Below, piece after piece: positions 29,092 to 31,595 of a DNA stretch of 64,000 bases (position 1 is the first letter of the stretch; every line of letters starts with the position of its first letter). The position numbers were made by a program, and so were the translations under genes. The DNA comes from Candidatus Electrothrix scaldis. Lineage in GTDB: Bacteria; Desulfobacterota; Desulfobulbia; Desulfobulbales; Desulfobulbaceae. A model generated the notes under the pieces. That model had not been told where the DNA came from. It saw nothing but the letters and a program-made list of their open reading frames with translations, and did not search any database. The DNA is taken from positions 372,001 to 436,000 of the forward strand of contig CP138355.1 in assembly GCA_033584155.1 (NCBI GenBank), in the 5' to 3' direction.

Positions 29092-29205
29092 GCTTTCTTT
29101 TTATGCTACCTGATGCGTTGGGACCGGGCAAGAGGTTTCAAATAAAAAGGGCGACCGACCGGTCGCCCTTGTGGGGTGTAATACCCTCTTCATAGGGTAG
29201 GTACT
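29092..29205 (-). repeat. CRISPR terminal segment, copy 2 with terminator hairpin
   Basis: Nearly identical to 28377-28490. The hairpin GGGCGACC-GACC-GGTCGCCC at 29149-29168 reads into TTTTTATTTG on the minus strand, a good Rho-independent terminator. It directly adjoins the two-repeat mini-array at 29175. Confidence 0.82.
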
Positions 29206-29278
29206 CCAACGAAAATCCAATGGATCGAGGCGTTGGGTCTGGTCTTAATACCCTCTTCATAGGGTAGATGCCCGTTAC
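29175..29278 (-). CRISPR. Two-repeat mini CRISPR array
   Basis: A first repeat (29175-29210, with GGTGTAATACC replacing the normal GTCTTAATACC) and a second repeat (29242-29278) flank a 31-base spacer. The second repeat keeps GTCTTAATACCCTC and CATAGGGTAG but its end reads ATGCCCGTTAC, unlike either type in the main array, and overlaps the end of the vapC pseudogene. Confidence 0.85.
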
Positions 29279-30026: not shown

Positions 30027-30046
30027 GGGCGACCGGCTGGTCGCCC
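30027..30046 (-). terminator. Hairpin at the trailer end of the main CRISPR array
   Basis: GGGCGACC-GGCT-GGTCGCCC lies seven bases beyond the degenerate last repeat. On the minus strand only TTTCTG follows, so it is a weaker terminator than the copies at 28434 and 29149. Its presence supports minus-strand transcription of the array. Confidence 0.55.
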
Positions 30047-30052
30047 TTGTGG

Positions 30053-31134
30053 GGTGTAATACCCTCTTCATAGGGTAGGTACTCCAACCTACCCAAAAAA
30101 ATCCAGACGACGAAACTGTGCTGGGTCTTAATACCCTCTTCATAGGGTAGGTACTCCAACTCTGGCTTTGCCTCTATCAGCTTCCGCTGAAAGTCTTAAT
30201 ACCCTCTTCATAGGGTAGGTACTCCAACCGTTTGGGTTTAGTAATGGCAGACCGATTGATGAAGTCTTAATACCCTCTTCATAGGGTAGGTACTCCAACT
30301 ACTCTCTCTTTCGGTCTCATACACTAATCTGGTCTTAATACCCTCTTCATAGGGTAGGTACTCCAACTTCCTATCAATTGGTATAGGAGTGCTATTTCCG
30401 TCTTAATACCCTCTTCATAGGGTAGGTACTCCAACACTTGGGGAGCTGATATCACGGCAATTCAGGCTGTCTTAATACCCTCTTCATAGGGTAGGTCGTT
30501 GCAACTTGGAGAAACTCCAACACAATACCCAGAGATACTAGGTCTTAATACCCTCTTCATAGGGTAGGTACTCCAACTACTCTCTCTTTCGGTCTCATAC
30601 ACTAATCTGGTCTTAATACCCTCTTCATAGGGTAGGTCGTTGCAACAACCTAAAGAGGAGTAATGGCCACAGAAAAACAAGTCTTAATACCCTCTTCATA
30701 GGGTAGGTCGTTGCAACGACAATAATGCAAATAGGGGTGATTGGCAATACGTCTTAATACCCTCTTCATAGGGTAGGTACTCCAACTTTTTTGGTTTCGT
30801 AAATACTTCTTTTGCGGTGGTCTTAATACCCTCTTCATAGGGTAGGTACTCCAACGGTCAACAAAATCTTATAAATTTTTTGCGGGGGGTCTTAATACCC
30901 TCTTCATAGGGTAGGTACTCCAACCTTCGCTTTAGTTGCGATGCTTACGCGCAACAAAGTCTTAATACCCTCTTCATAGGGTAGGTCGTTGCAACATGGT
31001 CTTCCGATTAGAAGAGAAAACAAGGTGTCAAGTCTTAATACCCTCTTCATAGGGTAGGTCGTTGCAACCACATCACATCACATCATATCACATCCACGTC
31101 TTAATACCCTCTTCATAGGGTAGCTCCCAACAAC
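30053..31134 (-). CRISPR. CRISPR array, 16 repeats and 15 spacers, two repeat types
   Basis: Repeats start at 30053, 30125, 30193, 30264, 30332, 30400, 30469, 30542, 30610, 30681, 30751, 30820, 30889, 30959, 31032 and 31098. All but the first share GTCTTAATACCC and TCTTCATAGGGTAG (plus strand). They end in one of two ways: type A, GTACTCCAAC (36 nt), or type B, GTCGTTGCAAC (37 nt). In order from low coordinate the array is A,A,A,A,A,A,B,A,B,B,A,A,A,B,B, then a variant ending CTCCCAACAAC. Spacers are 29-36 nt; spacers 4 (30300-30331) and 8 (30578-30609) are identical. The left repeat is degenerate and followed by a hairpin, and the minus-strand repeat ends ATTAAGAC, a plausible crRNA handle. 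Transcription from right to left is therefore likely. No cas genes lie in the window. Confidence 0.97.
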
Positions 31135-31223
31135 CTTGTATTAAGTAATAATAGCCTCACCGGATTATGCAAGAAAAAAACGACAGCAAACACATTTTGA
31201 ACATTGCGCCCTTTACAAAGAGG

Positions 31224-31447
31224 AAGCCTGCATACTCCCCAAGAGCATACCTGCATACTCCTCAAGAGCATGCCTGCATTCTCCTCAAGAGCATGCCTGC
31301 ATCCTCCCCAAGAGCATACCTGCATTCTCCCCAAGAGCATGCCTGCATACTCCCCAAGAGCATGCCTGCATACTCCCCAAGAGCATGCCTGCATACTCCC
31401 CAAGAGCATAGTAGTATCCTCCGCAAGAGCATGCCTGCATCCTCCTG
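31224..31447. repeat. 23-bp minisatellite at the leader side of the CRISPR array
   Basis: About nine and a half tandem units of AAGAGCATGCCTGCATACTC plus CCC, with small variations (ATACC/ATGCC, CATTC/CATCC/CATAC). One unit is strongly divergent (GAGCATAGTAGTATCC). Because 23 is not a multiple of three, every frame across it stays open and produces artefactual repetitive frames on both strands. It separates the presumed leader (31135-31200, AT-rich) from the gene at 31596. Confidence 0.92.
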
Positions 31448-31595
31448 CCGGGAATCACTGCGTCCCCCTCCTTTTTCACCCTATTTCCAGAGGATGAACA
31501 ATAATTCCATTGACAAAGCCGGAAGAGCGCCGTAATTTGGCACAAGCAGTTCTGCTCCATCCCATTTTATCCCATCATTTCAAAGGAGAATCCTC

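Follow-up and report, generated by a model that had tools for sequence, protein, structure and literature searches.

Introduction

According to passages of a review (PMC8047081), deletions, duplications, recombination and degenerate terminal repeats are known in CRISPR arrays, as is ectopic insertion in arrays with mutated leaders; in the same passages, RecA-type exchange over short homology is thought to be inefficient, and RecA-independent misalignment is favoured for short repeats. As set out in part of another study (PMC2886076), the stretches of variant repeats that occur in Escherichia and Salmonella have been taken to arise when a new repeat copies its neighbour. Our literature search, with supplements and most subscription journals outside its scope, has given no array in which repeats from two leader classes alternate among the matches listed, and no account of cable-bacterial CRISPR arrays, judged by titles and abstract openings; in the main text of two cable-bacteria genome papers (PMC10926707, PMC12093952), the word “CRISPR” is missing.

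Here, we have analysed an array of the cable bacterium Ca. Electrothrix scaldis GW3-3, whose closed genome is described in the genome report as a hybrid Nanopore and Illumina assembly with an average read length of 3,779 bp (PMC10926707). The array is located in a window of 64,000 nucleotides (positions 372,001 to 436,000 of contig CP138355.1), to which all coordinates refer unless they are given in kb, i.e. on the genome, or with the identifier of another locus (L numbers). Genomes are numbered, with G000 being the genome of the window and G002 a sister genome of the same genus.

Results

The repeats of the window array

The array occupies positions 30053-31131 and consists of 16 repeats and 15 spacers of 29-36 nt, with start-to-start distances of 66-73 nt; as in type III-B arrays, regular, near-identical repeats and spacers are accompanied by a leader, which is truncated here. 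Its transcript sense is probably that of the minus strand, because the conserved leader side is at the high-coordinate end; a leader on the low-coordinate side was ruled out, given that arrays with a full leader have a long conserved leader on the opposite side. The class I leader (31132-31200, minus strand, far end approximate) is followed by tandem 23-nt repeats at 31218-31470, and a similar stretch adjoins the array at 3,483 kb.

Two kinds of repeat alternate in the array: repeat A (GTCTTAATACCCTCTTCATAGGGTAGGTACTCCAAC, 36 nt) and repeat B (GTCTTAATACCCTCTTCATAGGGTAGGTCGTTGCAAC, 37 nt), which have their first 28 nt in common (the last 28 nt in the transcript sense). From low to high coordinates and on the minus strand throughout, six A repeats with their spacers at the trailer end (30053-30435) are followed by one B repeat (30469-30505), one A repeat that adjoins the second copy of a duplicate spacer (30542-30577), two B repeats (30610-30717, i.e. 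30610-30646 and 30681-30717), three A repeats (30751-30924, i.e. 30751-30786, 30820-30855 and 30889-30924), two B repeats (30959-31068, i.e. 30959-30995 and 31032-31068) and, lastly, the leader-side repeat of 34 nt (31098-31131). The claim of an earlier, sequence-only reading that two types of 36 and 37 nt are interleaved in one array is thus confirmed, and the types follow one another as A6 B A B2 A3 B2. The 25-base block that it had ascribed to all sixteen repeats is present in 15 of them and absent from the first (30053), which starts with GGTGT, not GTCTT, leaving about 22 nt common to all sixteen; the identity between A and B extends over 28 nt. As the same reading had held, the difference between A and B is located outside the hairpin, which the common 28 nt contain, and at the 5' end of the repeat in the transcript sense.

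At both ends of the array, the outermost repeat has an outer end unlike those of the body repeats. The end of the leader-side repeat had been regarded as a third type, which we reject by comparison with the sister genome: the repeat is an A repeat with a deletion of 3 nt and an insertion of 1 nt (GCTCCCAAC for GGTACTCCAAC), and at the matching site in G002, the orthology of which is supported by flanks that match on both sides, a single repeat with an intact A end is located before the same leader. The leader side of the G002 site is interrupted after about 100 bases.

RNA folding predicts the TACCCT/AGGGTA hairpin for the B repeat, for the repeat kind of the 211 kb array and for the trailer-end repeat, and the same hairpin for the leader-side repeat with three extra leader bases, while the A repeat, in its lowest-energy fold, has its 5' end paired in another way. 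Of the five repeats tested, none is clearly more stable than its shuffles (z -0.9 to -1.7). The scan for promoters and terminators gave no signal above chance.

Spacers and flanks of the window array

One spacer occurs twice in exact copy, at 30300-30331 and at 30578-30609; the copies are non-adjacent, 278 nt apart, and have an A repeat as leader-side neighbour at one copy and a B repeat at the other. This spacer was not found in the 7 other genomes of the genus with up to 3 mismatches. Within the mosaic, A and B units are not separated by spacer length (P 0.42, 10 versus 5); between pure A and pure B arrays, the lengths differ slightly (P 0.02, 22 versus 15). The spacer at 30506-30541 contains the A end, ACTCCAAC, together with AATACCC, the start of the core; the chance of this 8-mer in any of the 15 spacers is about 0.7%. 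The spacer at 31069-31097 (29 nt) is of low complexity, with CACAT-like repeats. As regards protospacers, phage records gave no match to the window array at E values up to 0.1, and viral contigs gave no exact match to 24-nt pieces that were taken from 3 of the 15 spacers, nor to the repeat core.

The trailer flank, of the type that we refer to as T1, contains a palindrome (GGGCGACC..GGTCGCCC, 30027-30046); this palindrome or a close relative is found at the trailer end in two CRISPR repeat families that are unrelated to each other (the window array; L129 and L131). A mini-array of two repeats, one ending as A and the other degraded at its end, is found nearby (29175-29278, minus strand), and its trailer flank resembles that of the main array.

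CRISPR systems of the genome

The 20-nt core of the repeat occurs in 61 exact copies in the genome, against 0 for the reversed pattern, which excludes chance. The core-bearing arrays are located at 182, 211, 401, 402, 437, 3,483 and 4,394 kb, in addition to a few solo copies; in a collection of named genomes, 17 stretches contain the exact core (Ca. Electrothrix 9, Desulfobulbaceae MAG 7, Bacteroidales MAG 1). A search for pure arrays, which the sequence-only reading had proposed as a check, has found both kinds elsewhere in the genome: an array of A units only at 3,483 kb, with 7 spacers and a decayed leader-side repeat of its own, and an array of B units only at 182 kb, with 2 spacers. A-only and B-only arrays also occur in other genomes of the genus. 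The 182 kb B array (L038 7951-8374, G000) is missing from G002, where about 3.3 kb of other DNA is located instead (L135 7141-10444).

The cas genes, also proposed as a check, are located beside an array of the same core: genes at 202-210 kb match Cmr1, Cas10/Cmr2, Cmr3, Cmr4, Cmr6 and Cas6 and adjoin the array at 211 kb, whence our assignment to type III-B. In G000, cmr1 is split into two overlapping frames (L040 3596-4883; 207-209 kb), either by a frameshift or by a sequencing error, and in G002 it is one stop-free stretch of 422 codons. The sole Cas1 match in the genome is of type I-C (4,217 kb) and adjoins an array of type I-C whose repeat is unrelated.

A second locus of RAMP genes (2,026-2,035 kb) encodes a Cas6-RT of 532 aa (G000 2,034 kb, L128 11915-13513), which is without the Cas1 part of the 878-aa Cas6-RT-Cas1 of G002 (L130 9471-12107); no Cas1 match remains at the G000 Cas6-RT locus. 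The array that is associated with RT-Cas1 in G002 (L129 11814 onward) contains three nested repeat variants, in 6, 9 and 1 copies, apparently a natural record of ordinary leader-end copying, with the types sorted.

Two leader classes across the genus

We have tabulated 48 core groups (22 multi-repeat, 26 solo) from retrieved loci of seven genomes of the genus and of a single Bacteroidales MAG contig; one place in G007 (C87) and one place with three mismatches in G000 were left out of the table, and G004, an eighth genome of the genus, has no core match. On the leader side, the 36-nt repeats end in ACTCCAAC (A), GTTCCGAC, GTTACGAC, GCTACGAC and similar sequences, and the 37-nt repeats in CGTTGCAAC (B) or TGTTGCAAC. 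The leaders form two classes that follow the repeat length: class I leaders (26 groups) occur with the 36-nt kinds or with decayed forms, and class II leaders, which contain GCGCGAACC in 6 of 6 groups, are paired with the 37-nt kinds; the GTTGCAAC-type leader-side end is found in all 6 class II groups and in none of the 26 class I groups. The remaining 16 of the 48 groups are without a recognised leader. Flanks of the T1 trailer type occur in 25 of the 48 groups, including 11 of the 16 leaderless ones, and those of the T2 type in 5 of the 6 class II and 5 of the 26 class I groups, by patterns that we have written ourselves and outside which 13 of the 48 groups fall.

Alternation between repeat kinds is found in the window array only, among the 22 multi-repeat arrays. 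A second hybrid between the classes is group 28 of G001, which starts, from the trailer end, with a single B unit and continues with 7 class I units and a class I leader; its trailer flank is closely like that of group 34, a class II solo repeat. Group 25 of G003 has a single switch between two class I kinds, and groups 33 and 38 have one slightly changed unit each. Several solo repeats have a leader and no spacer (L026, L027, L028, L030, L031, L032), and are possibly collapsed arrays.

Truncated leaders and the turnover of units

In the multi-repeat class I arrays with a truncated leader, the leader-side end differs from that of the neighbouring body in 6 of 6 arrays (4 loci), against none of the 10 other multi-repeat class I arrays (9 loci); counted by loci, the chance of this association is 0.0014. 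Group 45, called truncated by our script, is counted among the ten, as its contig ends inside the leader, and group 4, which has two repeats, lacks a recognised leader and has a leader-side end that is also unlike the body, is excluded from the count.

Four arrays have orthologues in G000 and G002, with flanks whose main aligned stretches show about 95-99% identity; the cmr genes of the two genomes are 73-91% identical. These four pairs have 0 spacers in common (14 versus 30; 8, of which 7 are distinct, versus 22; 7 versus 7; 6 versus 6). In two of the pairs, the leader-side end is decayed in both genomes, in the same way in one pair and in a closely similar way in the other, and every body repeat has an intact end. 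Units that had been copied from the leader-side repeat after the split would bear the decayed end; as the body ends are intact, other routes have been considered for these two pairs, either the loss of complementary parts from long ancestral arrays, allelic recombination, or entry at internal repeats. Turnover by deletion alone may also account for the two leader-truncated pairs: a rough model of random-subset deletion, which serves as a guide only, since real deletions remove blocks, gives P about 0.01 with 60 ancestral spacers and 0.10 with 100.

We suggest, very tentatively, that units may still enter leader-truncated arrays in a way that bypasses the leader-adjacent repeat, i.e. by insertion at internal repeats or by the import of whole units, in which case new repeats would bear a 5' end that is foreign to the leader-adjacent repeat. 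A different idea, that a tail is supplied with each inserted spacer, was considered because both outermost repeats of the window array differ from its body, and was set aside: in the 10 other class I arrays, as in all 5 of the multi-repeat class II arrays, the leader-side end is identical to the newest end of the body.

Discussion

Origin of the mosaic

We consider it likely that the mosaic has been formed by recombination in the common core between arrays of the two classes, with each spacer travelling together with its end tag. The locus would be a Cmr (type III-B) array whose class I leader is truncated, in which the A units would come from class I arrays, with 36-nt repeats, and the B units from class II arrays, with 37-nt repeats. 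The common 28 nt hold the predicted hairpin and a putative crRNA 5' handle (ATTAAGAC), which is placed within them on the model of other Cas6 systems. In these 28 nt, either recombination or misalignment during replication would swap units that consist of a spacer and the type-specific 5' end of the adjoining repeat; since the type-specific end is located between the common 28 nt and the spacer, an exchange there moves the two together. The interleaved order would require several exchanges, of which one or more would have been unequal and have given rise to the spacer duplicate.

As would be expected of a hybrid array, units of two parental kinds are joined at a sequence that they have in common; 5 of the 15 units are B, despite the cut-short class I leader, and as this leader is A-type, the B units look foreign. 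The sequence-only reading had offered recombination between arrays as one explanation, which is supported in that A and B belong to two leader classes and arrays of each kind are present in the genome; the exchange events themselves are inferred, as are their number, their RecA dependence and the processing and use of A as well as B units by Cas6 and Cmr. Recombination is also favoured by the hybrid array of G001, by the T2 flanks, which occur in both leader classes, and by two spacers from the second G000 array of the Cas6-RT system: each is present three times in the first array of G002, and these two arrays are not orthologues by their flanks. It counts against recombination that a comparison of 180 spacers from 22 arrays of the repeat family gave no donor, since none of the spacers of the window array recurred in a second array and the sole pairs over the similarity limit were two within-array duplicates; that spacer length does not separate the A and B units of the mosaic; that 28 nt are short for a RecA-type exchange, while misalignment is confined within arrays and does not join distant ones, and that the five A/B junctions require several events.

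The other explanation in the sequence-only reading, that the leader-adjacent repeat alternated between A and B repeatedly, with each new unit copying the current one, is disfavoured, and we regard it as quite improbable. Copying of this kind is seen in the nested variants of the RT-Cas1 array of G002 and could account for the one change of type in group 25 of G003, and the repeat-variant stretches of Escherichia and Salmonella have been so interpreted (PMC2886076); the window array, however, would need five exact exchanges between A and B at one site, and it has a class I leader and a decayed A repeat on the leader side, yet its next two units are B. Leader-end acquisition would leave the types sorted, with the newest like the leader-side repeat, which is not the order found: there are 6 runs, where random mixing gives 7.7 (P of 6 or fewer, 0.24; P of two or fewer, 0.0007), so that the A/B order is no less mixed than random. 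Ectopic acquisition, by which an array with a truncated leader would receive insertions at internal repeats that copy the local type, so that B units, imported once or twice, were multiplied, is unlikely, although the review (PMC8047081) describes ectopic insertion in arrays with mutated leaders, and all six truncated class I arrays have a body without the end of the leader-side repeat, as against none of the ten others. The entry of B would still require recombination, though; the leader-side spacer should persist, but in neither of the two comparable pairs is it the same in G000 and G002, and the genome's only Cas1 match belongs to type I-C.

Assembly error is an unlikely cause of the variant repeats, and as the origin of the whole mosaic, an assembly artefact or a mixture of strains seems to us hardly credible. 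Arrays are repetitive and the genome is metagenome-derived, but the genome report describes a clonal enrichment with a 0% polymorphic rate, sequenced from native DNA with long reads (PMC10926707); moreover, each repeat kind is present in separate arrays elsewhere in the genome.

Recombination between the two array classes, the reading that we prefer, suggests that the arrays of this cable bacterium trade spacers beyond the additions at their front end. Arrays are usually read as time lines, with the newest spacer at the leader, and exchange between arrays undermines that reading. The repeat end would act as an inherited mark that shows from which class of array a spacer came, making exchange directly countable in genomes, and the leader-truncated arrays offer a natural test of array renewal without leader-end acquisition.

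Comparison with known systems

The window array is like type III-B (Cmr) arrays in its repeats of 36-37 nt and in the Cmr operon and Cas6 that are located beside a sister array of the same core; it differs from them in that several dispersed arrays and two leader classes occur here, and in that the sole Cas1 match, of type I-C, is at a separate locus. With the Escherichia and Salmonella arrays (PMC2886076), it has in common the presence of repeat variants inside one array; the variants form stretches there, whereas two kinds of different length alternate here. Ectopic acquisition with mutated leaders, as covered in passages of the review (PMC8047081), is matched by the leader-defective arrays whose body repeats are unlike copies of the present leader-side repeat, but the cases of the review are of type II, with other machinery, and no insertion event is seen in ours. 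The closest likeness is to array rearrangement by recombination, which those passages also describe (PMC8047081): the out-of-place spacer duplicate, the solo repeats that are probably collapsed and the degenerate terminal repeat all have their counterparts there, with the difference that the repeats of the window array bear a class tag, so that the mixing of the classes is directly readable, and interleaved. Array recombination is already known, and the interleaving of the window array is a striking natural example.
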